From: an uncultured Candidatus Puniceispirillum sp.
GTDB taxonomy: Bacteria > Pseudomonadota > Alphaproteobacteria > Puniceispirillales > Puniceispirillaceae
NCBI GenBank assembly: GCA_905182545.1
Contig: CAJJBY010000006.1
Location: 1 to 64,000 of the forward strand
Reading direction: 5' to 3'
Length of the DNA: 64,000 nucleotides
Shown here: positions 8,077-64,000 of the stretch, piece after piece
How positions within the stretch are numbered: position 1 is the stretch's first letter
Layout: each line of letters begins with the position of its first letter
Translations under genes and position numbers: made by a program
Notes under the pieces: model-generated
Database searches by the model: none
The model's input: only the letters and a program-made list of their open reading frames with translations
Told to the model about the DNA's origin: nothing

Positions 8077-9553
8077 ATGAAGACCTATCAACATTATATC
8101 AATGGGGCGTTATGTGATCCGGCTTCGGGCGAATGGTTTGATAGTGAAAACCCCTATACGGGTGAAGTATGGGCCAAAATAGCCCGTGGCAATGCCAAAG
8201 ATGTGGATCGGGCGGTGTCAGCGGCAAAAGCCGCCTTTGACGGTGAATGGGGCGCAACCGGCCCAACCGCCCGTGGCAAGCTGATGGTCAAGCTGGCCGA
8301 AATTATCGAACGCGAGGCGGCACGGCTTGGCGAGATCGAAGTTCGTGATAATGGCAAGCTGATTGCCGAAATGGGTGCGCAAACCAAATATCTGGCTGAA
8401 TGGTATCGCTATTTTGGCGGGCTTGCCGACAAGATTGAAGGCGCGGTCATCCCCTCTGACAAGCCGGGAATTTTCAATTTCACCCGTTATGAGCCGCTTG
8501 GGGTTATTGGCATGATTACGGCGTGGAATTCGCCTTTGTTGTTGCTGGCATGGAAATTGGCACCGGCTTTGGCCGCGGGAAACACCGCGGTGGTAAAGCC
8601 ATCTGAATATACGTCTGCATCAACATTGGAATTTATGGCACTTATCGAAGAAGCTGGCTTTCCCGCTAGGTGTGGTGAATGCAATTACTGGTTTTGGTTT
8701 GGAGGTTGGGGCGCCTTTGGTTGATCACCCCCATGTTGATAAAATTGCCTTTACCGGCTCGGATGTGTCGGGGCAGAAAATTTATGAGGCAGCAGCCAAA
8801 AAAATCATGCCGGTCACGCTGGAACTTGGCGGAAAATCCCCCAATATCGTTTTTGAAGATGCCGATTTTGAAGCTGCCGTGATGGGCGCGATTTCAGGAA
8901 TTTTCGCAGCAACAGGGCAAACCTGCATCGCCGGATCACGGCTTCTTGTGCAGCGTTCGATCCATGATAAATTTGTAAAACGGCTTGTCGAGGTTGCTGG
9001 CGCGGCGAAAATTGGTGATCCAATGTTGACCGAAACGCATGTGGGGCCGGTCACAACCATGCCGCAATATGAAAAAATCATGGATTATATCAATATTGCG
9101 AAATCCGAAGGGGCTGTTTGTGTTCTTGGCGGCGATGCTTATCGCGGTGCGGGGGCGAAAGGCAAACAATTTGTCCAGCCAACCATCTTTACCGGCGTTC
9201 AAAACCAAATGCGCATCGCCCAAGAAGAAGTATTTGGGCCGGTTCTGTCAGTGATCCCGTTTGATACTGAAGATGAGGCAATTGCCATTGGCAATGACAT
9301 TGTTTACGGGCTGGCTGCTGGGGTTTGGACAAGTGATATTGGCCGCGCTTTGCGCATGTCGGAAAAGCTAAAAGCGGGAACGGTCTGGGTGAATACCTAT
9401 CGCGCGGTTAGCTTTACCTCGCCATTTGGTGGCTATAAGCGCAGCGGTGAAGGTCGTGAAAGCGGCAAGGAATCGATCAAGGAATTTTTGCAGGTCAAAT
9501 CGGTCTGGATTGCCCAGCAAACCACAGCCGCGAACCCCTTTATTATGCGCTAA
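8077..9553 (+). CDS. NAD(P)-dependent aldehyde dehydrogenase (one frameshift)
   Basis: An ALDH-superfamily enzyme of about 491 residues once one extra base at about 8668 is removed (GFPA followed by GVVNAITGFG). The catalytic Glu is in VTLELGGKSPN and the catalytic Cys in ATGQTCIAGSR; the Rossmann region AFTGSDVSGQKI and the substrate-side Asn in MITAWNSPL are also present. It oxidises an aldehyde to the acid with NAD(P). Divergent from the split TPP decarboxylase, it could take the aldehyde that enzyme makes (for example sulfoacetaldehyde or phosphonoacetaldehyde), which is inference from position. A ribosome site (AAGGAGAT) precedes the ATG. Confidence 0.85.
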
Positions 9554-42243: not shown

Positions 42244-43387
42244 GCAAGACAATTCAGCACCCAAAGCCAAATGCCCATAAAGACCCGCGCGGCTGGTTGA
42301 TCGAGGCCGCCGCTCATGAGGGGTTTTTGTTGGCTGGTATTGGGCCGGCAGACATTGAGCCGGTAAACAGGGCAGGGCTGGTGGCGTTTCTGGATGATGC
42401 ATTTGAAGGCGATATGGGCTGGCTTCGCGATACGGCGGCAAAACGTCAACAGCCGCAGGCGATGTGGCCAGACGCAAAAACAGCCATTGTGCTTGGGATG
42501 AATTACGGCCCTGATCATGATCCGATGGATAATCTGGCGGCAAAGTCAGCAGGCAATATTTCGGTTTATGCGCGCGGGCGTGATTATCACGATCTGGTCA
42601 AGGGAAAGCTAAAACAGCTGGCAGGCCAATTTGCCGCGCAGACTGGCCATGCGGTAAAAGTGTTTGTTGATACGGCACCCCTGATGGAAAAGCCATTGGC
42701 GCAAACCGCAGGCATTGGCTGGCAGGGCAAACATACAAATCTTGTCTCGCGCAAGGCTGGATCATGGCTGTTTTTAGGGGTGATCCTGACCGATGCTATT
42801 TTGCCTTATGACGCGCCTGAAACTGATCGTTGCGGTGGTTGTCGTCAATGTCTTGATATTTGCCCAACCAATGCGTTTCCGCGCCTTACCGGCTGGATGC
42901 GCGGCGTTGTATTTCCTATCTGACAATTGAGCATAAGGGGGTGATTGACCGCAGCTTTCGTCACGCTATCGGCAATCGCATTTTTGGCTGTGATGATTGT
43001 TTGGCAATCTGCCCTTGGAATAAATTCGCCAGCCTTGCCAAAGAGCAAAAACTAGCCGCCAAGGCCGGAACTGATTTGCCGCCACTTGCTGATTTGCTGA
43101 AACTTGATGATTCTGGTTTTCGCCATTTTTTTGCGGGAACGCCGGTGCGCCGCGCAGGCTATGAACGGTTTTTGCGAAATGTGCTTATTGCGGCTGGCAA
43201 TAGCGACGATGCCGATTTGATGCCCTTGGTTACGCCGTTTCTGGATCATTCGTCTGCTTTGCTGCGGGCGATGGCCATTTGGGCGCTTCGCCAGCTTGCC
43301 GATGATGATATCTGGCAAGGGTTGCGCGAGGCTTATTTGCCCGATGAACGCGATCAATCAGTGCGCCGCGAGTGGCAAGATAACTAG
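42240..43387 (+). CDS. queG: Epoxyqueuosine reductase QueG (one frameshift)
   Basis: About 381 residues once one missing base at about 42882 is restored (TNAFP followed by [20 protein letters not shown]). QueG is a cobalamin-dependent 2x[4Fe-4S] enzyme that finishes queuosine. The two cluster motifs are [16 protein letters not shown] and [13 protein letters not shown], and the C-terminal part has HEAT-like helices. It starts with GTG inside the end of tgt. The break falls in a C/G run, as sequencing errors do. Confidence 0.88.
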
Positions 43388-52832: not shown

Positions 52833-55470
52833 ATGTCGAGTGTGAATGATATCCGCGCCACTTTTCTGGATTATTTTGGCAAAAATGGGCATGAAATTGT
52901 CGCATCAAGCCCGCTTGTGCCACAAAATGATCCAACCTTGATGTTTGCCAATTCGGGCATGGTACAGTTTAAAACTCTGTTTACCGGTGCCGAAAGCCGC
53001 GATTATGTTCGGGCGACAACAGCGCAGAAATGTGTTCGTGCTGGCGGCAAACATAATGATCTTGAAAATGTCGGCTATACGGCGCGTCACCACACATTTT
53101 TTGAGATGCTTGGTAATTTCTCCTTTGGCGATTATTTCAAGGAAAATGCCATTGAATTGGCGTGGAATTTAATCACCAAGGAATATGGGCTTGATGCGTC
53201 AAAACTGCTTGTCACGGTTTACCATGAAGATGATGAAGCGGCTAATCTATGGAAGAAAATCGCCGGTCTTGAATGATGACCGCATCATCCGCATTGCCAC
53301 ATCCGATAATTTCTGGGCGATGGGCGATACCGGTCCTTGTGGCCCTTGTTCGGAAATTTTTTATGATCATGGCGATCATATTCCGGGAGGCCCACCAGGG
53401 TCACCTGATGAAGATGGTGATCGCTTTATCGAAATCTGGAATCTTGTCTTTATGCAGTTTGAGCAGACGCCGGGCCAACGTATCGCCTTGCCAAAGCCGT
53501 CAATTGATACAGGCATGGGTCTGGAACGTATCGCGGCGGTGCTTCAGGGCAAGCATGATAATTACGACATTGACCTTATGCGAGCATTGATCGAGGCGTC
53601 GGCAGATGTTTCGGGTACTGATGCTGATGGAAGCCATAATATATCGCATCGTGTTGTTGCTGATCATTTGCGGGCGTCATCCTTTTTGATTGCCGATGGT
53701 GTTTTGCCGTCAAATGAGGGGCGCGGCTATGTTTTGCGCCGGATTATGCGGCGTGCCATGCGCCATATTCACCAAATGGGATGCGCTGATCCAACAATGT
53801 ACCGGCTTGTGCCAACCCTTGTTGCGGAAATGGGTGCGCAATATGGTGAATTAGGCCGTGCGCAATCGCTGATTACCGAAACGCTGAAGCTGGAAGAAAC
53901 CCGTTTTAAAGAAACGCTTGGTCGCGGCTTGCGCATTTTGAATGACGAGCTGGCAGGCAAGGCCGCCGGTGGCACGCTTGATGGGGCAACCGCCTTTAAG
54001 CTTTATGATACTTTTGGCTTTCCGCTTGATCTGACCCAAGATTTCATGCGGGGTTATGGCTGGCAGGTTGATCTTGATGCGTTCAACGCTGCAATGGATG
54101 CACAAAAGGCCAATGCCCGCCGTGCATGGAGCGGATCGGGCGACAGCGCCACTGAAACCATCTGGCTTGATCTGGCGCAAAATTCAGAGCCGACAGAATT
54201 TTTGGGCTACACATCAGACACGGCCGAAGCCATTGTCACCGCGCTTGTTGATGGCAATGCCGAAATCGAAGAAATTGGCAAAGCTGGCAAGGGGCGGATG
54301 ATTGTCAATCAAACCCCATTTTATGGCGAATCGGGTGGTCAGGTTGGTGATGTTGGTACGATTAGCTGGGATAATGGCACCGCCCGCGTCACCGATACCC
54401 AGAAAACCCCGTCGGGTCTGTTTATTCATCATGTCGAAATTATCTCTGGTACGCTTGCCAAGGGGCAAGAGGTTCGGTTGCAGATTGACGTGTCACGCCG
54501 TTTGCGGCTTCGCGCCAATCACTCGGCAACGCATCTTCTTCATGAATCGCTTCGGCTTGTGCTTGGCGATCATGTGGCGCAAAAAGGATCGCTTGTCAGT
54601 CCTGACCGGCTGCGGTTTGACTTTTCCCATCAAAAGGCGGTTACGGCCGATGAATTGGATCAGGTTCAGCAAATCGTCAATGCACGGATTCGGATGAATT
54701 CGGATGTCACAACCCGCATTATGACGCCTGATGCCGCGATTGAGCTTGGCGCATTGGCGCTGTTTGGCGAAAAATACGGCGATGAAGTTCGCGTTGTGCA
54801 AATGGGCGGTGCGGCTGATGATGATCCAAGCAAGGTATGGTCGGTTGAATTATGCGGCGGAACCCATGTTGGCCGAACAGGCGATATCAGCCTATTGAAA
54901 ATCATTTCGGAATCGGCTGTTGCTGGCGGGGTGCGCCGGATTGAGGCGGTGACGCATGAAGGCGCGCTGGCTTGGATTGATGCGCGTGATGCTATTTTGA
55001 CCAAAAGCGCTGATCTGTTGAAGATTGCGCCCGACCAGCTTGCCAACCGTGTTGCCCAGCTTGTCGAAGATCGTAAAAAGGCCGAACGTGATATCAGCCA
55101 GCTACGGCGTAAATTGGCCGCTGGTGGTGGTGCCGGCAATGGCAGTGATGTTGTCAATGGCATCAATTTTGTTGGGCGGTTGCTTGAAGACACGCCGGCA
55201 CGTGAATTGAAATCTATGGCCGATGAAATCAAATTATCGGTTGAAAATGCGGTGATCTGTCTTGTTGCGACTGATGCTGGCAAAGCATCGATTGTTGTTG
55301 CGGTAACGGCGGATCTTGCTGGTCAAAAAAGCGCGGTTGATTTGGTAAAGATTGGGTCGGCGGCACTTGGCGGCGGCGGCGGCGGTGGGCGACTTGATAT
55401 GGCGCAGGCTGGCGGCCCTGATGCCAGCAAGGCAGCCGCGGCGTTAAAAGCGGTTTCAGCCGCCCTATAA
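52833..55470 (+). CDS. alaS: Alanyl-tRNA synthetase (one frameshift)
   Basis: 878 residues once one extra T at about 53270 is removed (AGL followed by NDDRIIRIA); the Escherichia coli enzyme has 876. It charges tRNA-Ala. Class II motifs occur in the first 450 residues ([34 protein letters not shown]). The editing domain has [12 protein letters not shown] and CGGTHV, and a coiled coil and a glycine-rich C-Ala domain end it. As an essential single-copy gene it must be intact in the organism, so the break is a sequence error. Confidence 0.93.
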
Positions 55471-58624: not shown

Positions 58625-59760
58625 GTGCGATCGATACTTTATATTCTGTTTGCGGTGGGCGGGGTTCTTGTTGCAATCGCCTTGTCGATGGTGCTTCTTG
58701 ATGATGAGGGTGGCCAGCAGGTTAAGCCACAAAGCCCGTCAATTGAGCTGTCAAAACCGGCGGCTGGTAAGGCCGAAACAACTGATGCCAGCAAGGATAG
58801 CGGCACTAGCTTGCAGCCGCCCAATGCAACGCCTGGGGCGCCTTTGACGATTGATCTGGCACGCGTCAAGCCGGATGGCGCAGCGGTGTTTGCTGGCACG
58901 GCGGCGCCAAATGCAAAAATCCGTTTTTTTGAAGGTAACATTCTGCTTGGCGAAACAATTGCGAATGCAAATGGTGAATGGGTGATTGTGCTTGAAAAAT
59001 CACTTGCGGCTGGCCAGCATTTGATCTCGGTTGCGATGGAACACAGCGACGGAACAACTGAAATGGCCGAGCGCAGTCTGGCTGTTGAAATTTATCAAGA
59101 TACTGAAACCAAACCATTAGTGGCTCTCTTGCCGGAAACCGCGACCGAGGTGCCGGTGCTAATCCAGTCGCCTGATGATGTGGACACGGCTAAACCGGCC
59201 GCAGCCGCCAGTGAGGCCGCTATGGCTGATGCCGCTGTGCCCGAAACTAACCGATGCGAGCTCCAGGAAATTCCCAAGCCAAGAGCCAGATTGCGGCACT
59301 GGCACCAAGCGCGATTGTCTGGCGCGATGCAAGCCGTATTCTGATATCCGGCACATCAAGAGGCGGCGTTCGGGTTACGGTCAATGATGCCAAAGGGCAA
59401 TTTGGTGAGGCGCTGGTTTTGGCAGATGGCGCATGGCAGGTGGCCGGCAGTCTTGATATGGATATTGCGGTGAATCAATTGCGCTTTGCGTTATTTGATG
59501 ACGCCAACCAGACCATCGCCCGTTATGATCTGCCGATCAAAGCGCGTGATCTGGCCAAGGGACAAGACGGATCGCCGCTGGTCGTGGTGAATAAGGGCGA
59601 TATGTTGTGGCGCATTGCCTATCACCAGCTGGGTGACGGGGTTAAATATGTCGATATTGTTCGGCGCAACAAGCAAGATATTACCAACCCTGATCTGATT
59701 TACCCGAAACAGATTTTTGCCGTGCCGCAATCATCTGCTACGGCGTCTGATAAAAATTAG
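58625..59760 (+). CDS. Membrane-anchored LysM-domain protein with Ig-like repeats (frameshifted)
   Basis: About 378 residues after a one-base correction near 59250. An N-terminal signal anchor (SILYILFAVGGVLVAIALSMVL) is followed by a Pro/Ala/Thr-rich linker, then two bacterial Ig-like domains (AVFAGTAAPNAKIRFFEGN; the second begins ILISGTSRGGVRVTVND). A C-terminal LysM motif ends it (VVVNKGDMLWRIAYHQLG through DLIYPKQIFAVP). This domain order is common in alphaproteobacterial cell-envelope proteins that bind peptidoglycan. GTG start; the frame shift falls in the linker between the domains. Confidence 0.7.
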
Positions 59761-59824
59761 GTGACCGGTAATCCAGCTTTTCTATGCGTAGCAATGGCAC
59801 TGTTATCGGAAATGAGGCCAAGAC

Positions 59825-60521
59825 ATGACATTCATACCTGACTGGAAAATTGCCGATGATGGTTGGCCGGTGCTGGCGCTTGCCGGTATTGTGACCATCC
59901 TGACAAGCATGATCTTTTTGCCGCTTGGCTGTTTTTTCCTTGGCATTATGATATGGCTTGCGCATGGGCTTCGGTTGCCAAACCGGCAAACCAAAGCCGA
60001 TGACCAGATCATTTATGCACCGGCAGATGGTGTTGTTCTCGATATTGAACCCGACCGATTTCCCGATGGTCTTGCTGGTGATGATGCCGCGCCCGCCAAA
60101 CGCATCACCATTCAAACGCGGTTGACCGATACGCAATTGCAAACAAGCCCGATCACCGGCCATATTGTCGAAAATTTGCTTTTACCCGGTTTGTTTCGCA
60201 AATGGGGATTTGATCGCACCAGCTGGCAGGCGGCGCGTCTGTCAAATGAACGCCGCGAAATCCGTATTCGCGATGCATATGATCGCGAAATCATGCTTGT
60301 CCAGCTTGGCAGCAAAACCGCGCGTCAGTTGATTTGCCGTCTAGCCGAAGGAAAATTTGTCCAAGCTGGTGCGCCGATTGGCATGGCGCGCATTGCCGGT
60401 GTTGTTGATGTCTTTCGTGCCAGCAGGATGCAAATTGCTGATTGAAACGGGCCAGCATGTGATCGCTGGTGAAACCGCCATTGCGCAATTTGCCCGTAGG
60501 CCAAGTGCAAAACGGAGCTAG
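59825..60521 (+). CDS. Phosphatidylserine decarboxylase-like protein lacking the Gly-Ser processing site (frameshifted)
   Basis: About 231 residues after removing one extra T in a TTT run at about 60413 (VDVF followed by VPAGCKLLIETGQHVIAGET). Two N-terminal membrane helices and the PSD core (YAPADGVVLDIE, SPITGHIVENLLLPG, LSNERREIRI) match the short bacterial Psd. At the self-cleavage site, where the family has GxxRFGSRVDV, this protein reads GMARIAGVVDVF. Gly-Ser is replaced by Ala-Gly, so the pyruvoyl group cannot form in the normal way. Either this is a non-catalytic paralogue or a different enzyme. It precedes a CDP-alcohol phosphatidyltransferase by five bases, the usual psd-pssA order. 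Confidence 0.7.
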
Positions 60522-60526
60522 AGCCA

Positions 60527-61132
60527 ATGTTTGACGCCCAGCTTCGCCCCTTGATTGACCGGTTGCTAAACCCGATTGGGCGGGGACTTGTGACGCTTGG
60601 TGTCACTGCCAATCAGGTGACGATGATCGGCGTGGCTTTTGGCTTGATTGCGGCGGGATGTGCTGCCGCTGGCCTGTTTTATCCGGCCTTGTGGTTTGTT
60701 ATTGCAAACCGTGTCATTGACGGGCTGGATGGCGCGGTGGCGCGCGCCAGCCGGTCAAGCGATTTTGGCGGCTATCTTGATATTGTTAGTGATTTTATCT
60801 TTTACAGTGCCATTCCACTGGCCTTTGCAGTGGCGCGGCCAGAAGCCGCGCTTGCAGCAGCGTTCCTGATTTTCAGTTTTATTGGCACCGCCACTAGTTT
60901 TCTTGGCTTTGCCATTCTTGCCGAAAAACATAAAGTCACCACCCAAATCCGCGGCAAAAAGGCATTTTATTATCTTGGCGGTTTGACCGAAGGAACCGAA
61001 ACGATACTGCTGTTCCTTGCAATGCTGGTCTGGCCTGACTATTTCAGTCTAATGGCAATTATCTTTGGCATTTTATGCTGGGTGACAACTGCCACCCGCA
61101 TTTATGCGGCATATCGCCAATTCAATGACTAG
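60527..61132 (+). CDS. CDP-alcohol phosphatidyltransferase family protein
   Basis: A 201-residue membrane enzyme with about six helices. The family motif DG-x2-AR-x8-G-x3-D-x3-D is complete in VIDGLDGAVARASRSSDFGGYLDIVSDF (read from residue 64). It transfers a CDP-activated lipid head or tail group. Its place after a Psd-like gene suggests phosphatidylserine synthase, but the closest length and N-terminus (LIDRLLNPIGRGLVTLGVTANQ) fit a broader group, so the alcohol acceptor is open. Confidence 0.8.
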   Translation: MFDAQLRPLIDRLLNPIGRGLVTLGVTANQVTMIGVAFGLIAAGCAAAGLFYPALWFVIANRVIDGLDGAVARASRSSDFGGYLDIVSDFIFYSAIPLAFAVARPEAALAAAFLIFSFIGTATSFLGFAILAEKHKVTTQIRGKKAFYYLGGLTEGTETILLFLAMLVWPDYFSLMAIIFGILCWVTTATRIYAAYRQFND

Positions 61133-61194
61133 AGGCTAGTCGCCGTCTTCACGATCAAATGGGGCGGTTTTGGTCTTTAAGGAGCGCAGGATAA

Positions 61195-63523
61195 ATGAAA
61201 TTTGGAATTGGACAATCTACCGCGCGGGTCGAAGACCGGCGGCTGCTGATTGGCGCTGGCCGCTATAGTGATGATATTGCGCCCGGACAGGGCTTGCGTG
61301 TGGCTTTTTTGCGCGCCCCCTATGCGCATGCGCATCTGCTGAATATTGATCTAGAGGCAGCACGGCAGATGGACGGGGTTCATCTTGTCGCAACACAGGT
61401 CGATCTTGATGCCGATCATATTGGTGATGTTCTTTGCCAATATCGACCGCCCCTGATTGGCGGTGGTAAAATGCAGCTTGTAAGCAAGCCGGCGATGGTT
61501 CGGGATATCAATCGTCATGCAGGCGATATTGTGGCGATGGTTGTTGCTGATCGGCAGGAAACAGCCGATTCCGCTATCGAATTAATCACCGCTGAATTTG
61601 AACCAATGCCAGCGGTTACTGATATTTACGAAGCGATGAAAGATGGCGCGCCGCAGCTTTATGATTGTTACCCTAATAACATTGCCTTTGAATGGGGGGC
61701 TGGCAAGCTTGACGAGACTGAACGCGCCATGGATGCCGCGATTGCCGATGGCCATCAAATTATTGAGATCGATGTGGTGAATAGCCGCGTTGTGATCAAT
61801 TCGATGGAAACCCGCCCGATGGTCGCCGTCCCTGGTGCCAAAGATGGCACATTGGATATCTGGTGTGGAACGCAGGGCGCGGTTAGCATTGCCGAACAGA
61901 TTGCCAAGGCGCTATCAATGGAGCCCGCCGATGTAAGGGTTCAAACCGGCGATGTTGGTGGCAGTTTTGGCTTTAAGATTTTTCTGCATCCTGAACAAAT
62001 CTGCATTGCATGGGCGGCGCGCCGCCTTGGGCAAATGGTGCGGTGGCAGCAGGAACGATCCGATGGATTCCTGTCGGATTTACATGGTCGTGATAACCGG
62101 TCTCGTGCGCGTGCGGCGATTGATAAAACCGGGCGTATTCTGGCGCTTCAGGTTACCGCCCATGCCAATATGGGAGCATGGCTGTCGAATTTTTCGACCT
62201 ATATTCCAACGCTTTCGGGAAGCCGCACCCTGACCACCAATTATGATATTCAGGCGGCAAGCCTGCGGGTGATCGGCGTGATGACCAATACACCAGCGGT
62301 TGATGCCTATCGCGGCGCTGGGACGGCCTGAAGCCAATTATCTGATGGAACGGCTGATGGATCATATCGCCGCTGAAACCGGCCATAGCCGGATTGATGT
62401 TCGCCGCGTCAATATGATCAAGCCAAGTCAAATTCCCTATGAGATGGTTTGTGGCGGCACAATTGATTCAGGCGAAATGACCGAACTATTCGATATGGCA
62501 CTTGCCACGGCAGATGTTGCCGGATTTGCCAAACGCAAGGCGGAATCGGCTGAAAATGGCAAGCTTCGCGGTATCGGCTTTGGCATGTATCTCGAACAAT
62601 GCGGCAATGGCGCTGATGATGGTGTTGATATTGAATTTCAGGACGATGGGCGGGTTATCCTTCATGGCTCGCAGCAATGTAACGGGCAGGGGCATCAAAC
62701 CACGGTAACGCAAATCCTGTCCGACCGTCTTGGCTATGATGCTGATCTGATTACGGTCAAACAAGGCGATTCCAACCGCAGCCCGCGTGGCACAACCGGC
62801 GGCGCGCGAATGACCGCGGTTCTGGGGTCGGCAACAGCAGTGGCAGCGGCAAAGATTATTGATCTTGCCAAACCCTTTGCTGCCGAAGCGTTGGAATGTG
62901 GCGAAGATGATCTGAATTTTACCGATGGCCTGTTTTTGCGGCAGGACACCAACCGGTCAATCGCGATTGAAGATCTTGTCCGCCAGCTTGCCATCTCTGG
63001 CGAAAAGCACCGGCTGAATTGGGCGCAGCCCTATGAAACCGATGGCGCAACCTATCCTTATGGATGCCATATCATTGAGCTTGAAATTGACCGGCAGACC
63101 TGTGCTGTTGACATTGCCAGCTATCATGTTGTTGATGATTTTGGTATTGTTATCAACCCATTAACTCTTGAGGGGCAAATTCATGGCGGCATTGCCCAAG
63201 GTGTTGGTCAGGCGCTTTTGGAACATGTTGTTTATGATGATTCGGGTCAACTTTTGGCCGGATCATTGATGGATTACGCCTTGCCCCGCGCCGATCATTT
63301 TCCCGGGTTTCAGATCAGCACACGCAACACAGCTTGCGCCAACAATGCGCTTGGCATCAAAGGGTCGGGTGAAGCTGGTGCCATTGGCGCGCCGCAAGCG
63401 GTGATTTCGGCCATTTGTGATGCGCTGGACATTACCCATATCGATATGCCAGCAACGCCGCTGGCTATTTTTAATGCGATGAAGGCCAAAACTGCCAATT
63501 CGCCGATGCATGAAGGAGAATAG
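61195..63523 (+). CDS. Molybdenum hydroxylase large subunit, xanthine dehydrogenase/CoxL form II family (one frameshift)
   Basis: 775 residues after removing one extra A at about 62325, where the active-site loop [17 protein letters not shown] crosses two frames. The aldehyde-oxidase-like N-terminal domain, the molybdopterin region [15 protein letters not shown] and the late Glu loop [17 protein letters not shown] are all present. The loop is AYRGAGR, the form II type, not the AYRCSFR of true CO dehydrogenase, so CO oxidation should not be assumed. No medium (FAD) or small (2Fe-2S) subunit lies in the remaining sequence. GGAG precedes the ATG. Confidence 0.85.
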
Positions 63524-63524
63524 G

Positions 63525-63923
63525 GTGAGCGATAAAATTAATAAATCTGATGAAGAATGGCGTGAACAACTGACCGAAGAACAATATCATGTAACACGCA
63601 AACATGGCACCGAGCGGGCTTTTTCAGGCCGTCTTGATAAACATTATGACGCTGGCACCTATCTTTGTATCTGCTGCGCAACGCCGTTATTTTCATCCGA
63701 GACAAAATTTGACTCGGGATCGGGCTGGCCAAGCTTTTTTGCCCCTGTTGATGAGGCAAATATCGGCAAAACTGTTGATGAAAGCTTTTTCATGCGCCGC
63801 ACCGAGGTTCATTGTGACCGTTGTGATGCGCATCTTGGCCATGTGTTTCCCGATGGGCCGCAACCGACCGGCCTTCGCTATTGCATCAATTCGGCGTCAC
63901 TGGATTTTGTGAGCGACGAATAG
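63525..63923 (+). CDS. msrB: Peptide-methionine (R)-S-oxide reductase MsrB
   Basis: A 132-residue repair enzyme for R-methionine sulfoxide. AAGGAG six bases before GTG 63525 sets the start, one base after the CoxL-like stop. The zinc cysteines are in [11 protein letters not shown] and [17 protein letters not shown], with the substrate block [13 protein letters not shown]. The catalytic Cys is in [11 protein letters not shown]. The gene is coupled to, but functionally separate from, the molybdoenzyme. Confidence 0.95.
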
Positions 63924-64000
63924 GAGGAGGTGATGGGCAAAGGCCGGTGCAGGCGGGCTAATTGCTATATCCTCCTGTTTTGTTTTTCATCTTGCCGTAG
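63924..64000. other. Right-edge region
   Basis: No complete gene. AGGAGGAGGTG precedes an ATG at 63933, but the frame ends at a stop at the very edge after 22 codons. The AGGAGGA here and the TCCTCCT at about 63971 could pair as a terminator stem followed by TTTTGTTTTT. Confidence 0.35.

Follow-up and report, generated by a model that had tools for sequence, protein, structure and literature searches.

Closest described systems

The nearest described relative of the protein reported here is bacterial phosphatidylserine decarboxylase (Psd; PF02666). For the E. coli enzyme, cleavage is reported to be abolished in S254A and reduced in G253A, and decarboxylation to be abolished in H144A/N (PMC7952604). 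Our paralogue, from the SAR116 group (Candidatus Puniceispirillum), resembles Psd (E. coli Psd, 7cnx) in profile, predicted fold, N-terminal hydrophobic helices and PxDG motif, but it lacks the Gly-Ser cleavage pair and usually the catalytic His, and its gene adjoins one for a YnjF-type CDP-alcohol phosphatidyltransferase rather than pssA.

Conserved paralogues of a self-processing pyruvoyl enzyme that have lost processing or catalysis are reported from trypanosomatids: the prozyme of AdoMetDC and, in Leishmania, an AdoMetDC-like protein (PMC5201418; PMC3686867). The SAR116 case differs in that Psd is an unrelated enzyme family, that the paralogue persists where no active paralogue was found, and that its partner seems to be another enzyme. 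No Psd-fold pseudoenzyme was found described in the accessible parts of the open-licence literature searched; within that scope the Psd-fold case is new, the dead paralogues already known being those of the other enzyme.

The neighboring transferase also has described relatives. E. coli YnjF matches the transferase profile over its length, and no psd gene is annotated next to ynjF in E. coli. We know of no established function for YnjF, and found no paper naming ynjF in the open-licence literature; the paralogue would offer a handle on this membrane-lipid enzyme, present in E. coli as well. The PIP and archaetidylinositol-phosphate synthases (AF2299, M. tuberculosis PgsA1) supply its nearest models and solved folds, but the transferase reaches only 68 bits against an NCBIfam cut-off of 180. 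No inositol-phosphate synthase (PF01658) was found in the window's genome, and an inositol lipid was rejected as the transferase product.

The Psd-like gene and its reading frame

The window, which is the whole 64,000-nucleotide stretch analyzed, is contig C6 of its genome, which measures 2.0 Mb at 98.4% completeness and 4.5% contamination. One of the nearest named relatives is Candidatus Puniceispirillum sp. AH-135-E14 (SAR116), with 93.7% DNA identity over positions 59224-64000. The Psd-like ORF lies at 59825-60445 on the forward strand, has 206 amino acids as it stands, the last of them out of frame, and reads ...GMARIAGVVDVF... Its PF02666 match scores 37.2-37.8 bits (cut-off 22), and that of an intact relative (L005) 59.5 bits; one divergent member (L036) has no PF02666 match.

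In comparison with four relative loci from three genomes (L172, L174, and L171 and L046 of a single genome), the window carries one extra base near 60412, at a site placed within 60410-60416 of the forward strand, and the frame then ends at 60445. The C-terminal part follows in the next frame at 60414-60521 (forward strand; VPAGCKLLIETGQHVIAGETAIAQF..., stop at 60519-60521); it is in frame in the relatives, and the A1 profile matches 60414-60509 as a piece of its own. The whole span from 59825 to 60521 is 697 bases, not a multiple of three. The sequence-only reading had called the C-terminal part intact; taken literally, that is incorrect for the window. The insertion is probably a sequencing or assembly error, since neighboring genes are broken by the same kind of single-base indel.

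Loss of the catalytic residues

Ala191-Gly192 (60395-60400, forward strand) replaces the cleavage pair, aligning to Gly253-Ser254 of E. coli Psd, and Gln104 (60134-60136, forward strand) replaces the catalytic His, aligning to His144; Asp68 of the PxDG motif (60026-60028, forward strand), aligned to Asp90, is kept. The earlier proposal of Ala-Gly in place of Gly-Ser is confirmed, and relatives share the change. A base error was rejected as its cause, because they do so in open, full-length frames.

Across the family the pair is missing from all 55 paralogues (Gly-Ser in 0/55, versus 45/45 canonical Psds). The 45 canonical proteins, drawn from the family, order and class, all retain Asp90, His144, Gly253 and Ser254. 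At position 254 the paralogues have Gly (45), Pro (4), Ala (3) or Ser (3), the three Ser being preceded by Cys, Arg or Gln. Position 144 holds Gln in 35 including the window's, His in 9, Lys in 6, Arg in 4 and Leu in 1, while position 90 is Asp in 52 and Glu in 3. Residues at 144 and 253 vary from genus to genus, and no Ser is invariant among the paralogues in the alignments. Since the E. coli mutants show self-cleavage to depend on Ser254 and decarboxylation on His144, the paralogue should stay a single uncleaved chain without pyruvoyl, catalytically dead. Because the Gly-Ser pair is absent in 55/55, these alignments disfavor catalysis through pyruvoyl chemistry. The NCBIfam equivalog models score the paralogue low (84.9 bits versus the cut-off of 315 for NF003677), and every listed match falls below its cut-off.

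PF02666 has two matches in the window's genome. The second is a canonical psd on another contig (C8; 133.5 bits, RFGSRVDV) followed by pssA, so that the second, canonical copy that the sequence-only reading had suggested looking for is present. This copy passes NF003679 (270.3 bits, cut-off 252) and falls below the cut-off for NF003677 (283.4 versus 315). Three CDP-alcohol phosphatidyltransferases match PF01066 in the genome: a PgsA-like protein, PssA and the one in the window.

Predicted structure

An AlphaFold2 model was made for the intact relative L171, the AH-135-E14 locus (79 rows; pLDDT 88, pTM 0.83), whose protein is 97% identical to the window's over 197 residues. It has two hydrophobic N-terminal helices and a beta domain. 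The top Foldseek matches are PsiD (E 3.1e-05) and E. coli Psd (E 2.2e-04). VIA-align gives Z 12.5 over 165 residues with E. coli Psd (7cnx), and Z 13.2 over fewer residues, 127, with EIIA-Glc, so the beta core by itself does not single out Psd. Taken together, AlphaFold2, Foldseek and VIA-align bear out the earlier suggestion that the protein keeps the fold: a Psd fold is predicted, lacking the site for self-processing. Searching solved structures by sequence returned nothing for the A3 query, and two chance-level matches only for canonical Psd.

Conservation in the SAR116 family

We found the paralogue in 55 of the 61 genomes analyzed from the window's family (SAR116/Ca. Puniceispirillum), and in 28/28 of those that are near-complete. 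The genomes without it (G001, G012, G023, G035, G347 and G348) are 51-77% complete. The 55 include one copy split across two contigs (G028), one partial copy (G368) and one with its N-terminal part in another frame (G015). Judged by sequence, this is a conserved Psd pseudoenzyme of the SAR116 family; if that is true, these marine bacteria have kept a Psd-fold pseudoenzyme throughout the family.

Of 106 loci found among the named genomes, the best 80 were kept; 21 of these are SAR116 paralogues, with the transferase next in 21/21 (in L180 the frame is broken). Among the other 59 of these best 80, Gly-Ser is present in 58 and Ser-Ser in one (L210). The latter is the Psd of a Thermoanaerobaculum MAG, reading KFSSRVEL at the cleavage pair.

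The paralogue gene is under purifying selection: dN/dS over 12 genome pairs, which share genomes and hence are not independent, was 0.055-0.212, compared with 0.011-0.173 for canonical psd and 0.064-0.269 for the transferase. It is the faster-evolving copy, with a mean distance of 0.769 versus 0.333 for canonical Psd among 21 genomes. A tree of 81 rows, with genera g7 and g11 left out, joined the core and divergent paralogues with SH-aLRT 99, and contains long branches. Tests failed to reject one clade of paralogues with those of family f52 (p 0.79) or with the family's canonical copies (p 0.60). One loss and several losses are indistinguishable here, because of the long branches and because neither single-clade alternative was rejected.

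The neighboring transferase

The YnjF-type CDP-alcohol phosphatidyltransferase gene (60527-61132, forward strand; 201 amino acids) starts 5 bases past the stop of the Psd-like gene, inside whose end a GGAG (60514-60517) is a possible ribosome site for it. The protein scores 39.3 bits with PF01066 (cut-off 22). In an alignment of 19 rows D65, D68, G69, A72, G81, D85 and D89 are invariant and R73 is present in at least 90%, so that the CAPT active-site motif, D-x2-D-G-x2-A-R-x7-8-G-x3-D-x3-D, is intact. Against the transferase profile E. coli YnjF scores 245 bits, aligning from position 2 to 197 of the 200. In structure, the predicted transferase (pLDDT 80.7) resembles AF2299 and PIP synthases, and in the transferase tree the core forms one clade while divergent rows fall, weakly supported, in two places.

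The pairing of the Psd-like gene with a CDP-alcohol transferase, to which the sequence-only reading had drawn attention, is real and family-wide. The transferase gene adjoins the paralogue downstream on the same strand in 55/55 genomes, in G028 on the second contig piece. The median gap from stop to start is 11 bases in 48 loci, with 37/48 at 30 bases or fewer and 9 overlapping; not counted are six loci without a recognized ATG start, the G028 piece at a contig edge and the window copy with its frameshift.

Class-wide, the transferase was found in 63 of 289 genomes at E <1e-45, with at most 11 candidates scored per genome. Sixty transferase loci outside the family were surveyed within 2-3.5 kb around the gene or to the contig end, the neighbors being read by eye: 13 have a psd-pssA-transferase cluster, in 4 the gene immediately upstream is Psd-like, and the remaining 43 show neither arrangement. 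In family f52, of another order, a dead Psd-like gene lies directly upstream of the transferase in 3/3 loci (L159, L160, L165), with Gly-Gly at the Gly-Ser position and no His. At another locus (L150, genome G134) the Psd-like gene that immediately precedes a YnjF-type transferase keeps both Gly-Ser and His.

Directly upstream of the window's Psd-like gene is a gene for a LysM/Ig-like domain protein (58625-59760, forward strand), in two frames. In sister families f2-f4 a LysM protein gene directly precedes the transferase, with no Psd-like gene between. All 10 upstream proteins scanned there reach the Pfam LysM cut-off, one barely; the scan left out L286 and L293, L291 has no upstream sequence, and the neighbor count comes from a rough gene caller. 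In the sister families the gene labels icd and msrB are presumptive, given from the sequences.

A cardiolipin synthase role for the transferase, argued from exclusion of the PLD-type synthase, was tried and rejected. Strong TIGR04265 matches (E <1e-40, counted by hand) occur in 12/63 genomes with the transferase versus 33/226 without, so there is no exclusion between the two. In the window's genome no PLD-type cardiolipin synthase was found with TIGR04265, and the single PLDc match falls in an ORF that we take to encode polyphosphate kinase.

Genera without a detected phosphatidylethanolamine pathway

A search with the paralogue profile found no canonical psd in genus g7 (10/10 genomes) or in genome G025 of g11; in the same search, other genera's canonical copies reach E values of 1e-31 or lower. 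A search with NF003677 likewise found none in G021, G029, G034 and G025. All ten g7 genomes and G025 keep the paralogue-transferase pair. In the four genomes checked for it (G021, G029, G034, G025) pssA was not found either, there being no third, PssA-like PF01066 match; PF01066 matches in g7 and g11 were labeled PgsA-like or PssA by comparing their scores with those in the window's genome. G029 lacks a PgsA-like match too, and its absences are therefore weak. The g7 and g11 genomes are drafts, 61-95% complete, in which a single absence is weak and ten of ten is stronger. Because these genera keep the paralogue where no canonical psd was found, a role solely as regulator of canonical Psd, one form of the regulatory paralogue put forward in the sequence-only reading, is disfavored. 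They also call for caution in annotation, as PF02666 alone can credit phosphatidylethanolamine synthesis to genomes, such as those of g7 and g11, without a detected working psd.

Seven of the ten g7 genomes have a second psd-like gene (L295 at G021:C2, L296 at G034:C36, L340-L344), an open frame in which Gly-Gly replaces Gly-Ser and the His is missing. It sits apart from the transferase pair, and in 7/7 the canonical profile scores highest.

In sister family f2, psd was not found in six genomes of genus g15 (G040, G043, the latter a single contig, G049, G052, G056 and G058), and phosphatidylethanolamine synthesis by the psd route may be absent from them. All six keep the YnjF-type transferase.

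Proposed role and alternatives

We propose that the conserved dead Psd paralogue serves the YnjF-type transferase as a membrane partner with no catalysis of its own, a reading to which we give an even chance and for which the evidence is wholly that of synteny. It would be the likeliest role because of the constant place of the gene before that of the transferase, with or without a detected phosphatidylethanolamine pathway, and because of the f52 case. The Psd-like protein, keeping its fold and N-terminal hydrophobic helices, would sit at the inner membrane; presumably translated together with the transferase, it might act on it as a stabilizer, a lipid-binding subunit or a regulatory subunit. 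The pair may make a different lipid, as the sequence-only reading suggested. A co-evolution test gave the partnership no support: the partial distance correlation of paralogue with transferase, given canonical Psd and PssA, was 0.068 in 21 genomes, and 637 of 2000 permutations were as high. Since the transferase often stands alone, having no Psd-like neighbor in f2-f4 and in the 43 class-wide loci noted above, a Psd-like partner is not generally needed. A wider form of the proposal can be offered only tentatively, from comparison of gene neighborhoods: a pyruvoyl-free Psd fold may have become a dedicated transferase subunit in two or more families of Alphaproteobacteria belonging to different orders, where it would control phospholipid making and outlive the phosphatidylserine-to-phosphatidylethanolamine pathway in whole genera.

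An unlikely alternative, though the best of them, is a prozyme-like regulator, in which the dead paralogue would pair with canonical Psd (or PssA) and tune phosphatidylethanolamine synthesis. The trypanosome AdoMetDC prozyme, a dead pyruvoyl-enzyme paralogue that serves as activator, is a reported precedent (PMC5201418). Canonical psd is present in the window's genome and most relatives, with pssA next to it in 20/20 canonical family loci (picked for having canonical psd), and among the same 21 genomes the partial distance correlations of the paralogue, here without permutation, are 0.540 with PssA and 0.380 with canonical Psd. Such a regulator is, however, hard to square with g7 and g11, which keep the paralogue where neither canonical psd nor, in the four genomes checked, pssA was found, and the paralogue never adjoins canonical psd in the loci examined.

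Somewhat less probable is a stand-alone lipid-binding or lipid-sensing membrane protein whose gene would merely share a transcript with the transferase and LysM genes. The predicted retention of the Psd fold is consistent with this, as is the second dead gene of g7, open although away from the transferase pair, which hints that the bare fold may be useful. Adjacency to the transferase in 55/55 across genera, down to about 22% identity, and in f52 besides, suggests instead that the two are linked.

We think it doubtful that the protein is an enzyme with other chemistry, its pocket running a pyruvoyl-free reaction on the transferase product. This idea could draw on the Asp90 equivalent kept in 52/55, on a decarboxylase-synthase gene order like that of canonical psd-pssA, and on the 13/60 class-wide psd-pssA-transferase clusters, but the paralogues lack an invariant Ser and differ among genera at residues 144 and 253. 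That the gene is a decaying pseudogene or an assembly artefact, as the frameshifted window copy might suggest, is very improbable in view of the open frames of relatives, the low dN/dS, its retention in all 28 near-complete genomes and the same sort of single-base indel in neighboring genes.

Other frame changes in the window

One-base indels relative to the relatives also occur at 53269, where the gene at 53185 is broken in its 5′ portion, at 59248-59258 (near 59250) in the LysM gene, and at 62319, breaking the gene at 61195-63523. Overlapping ORFs at 8672-8724 and 42860-42923 mark further genes split by frame changes.
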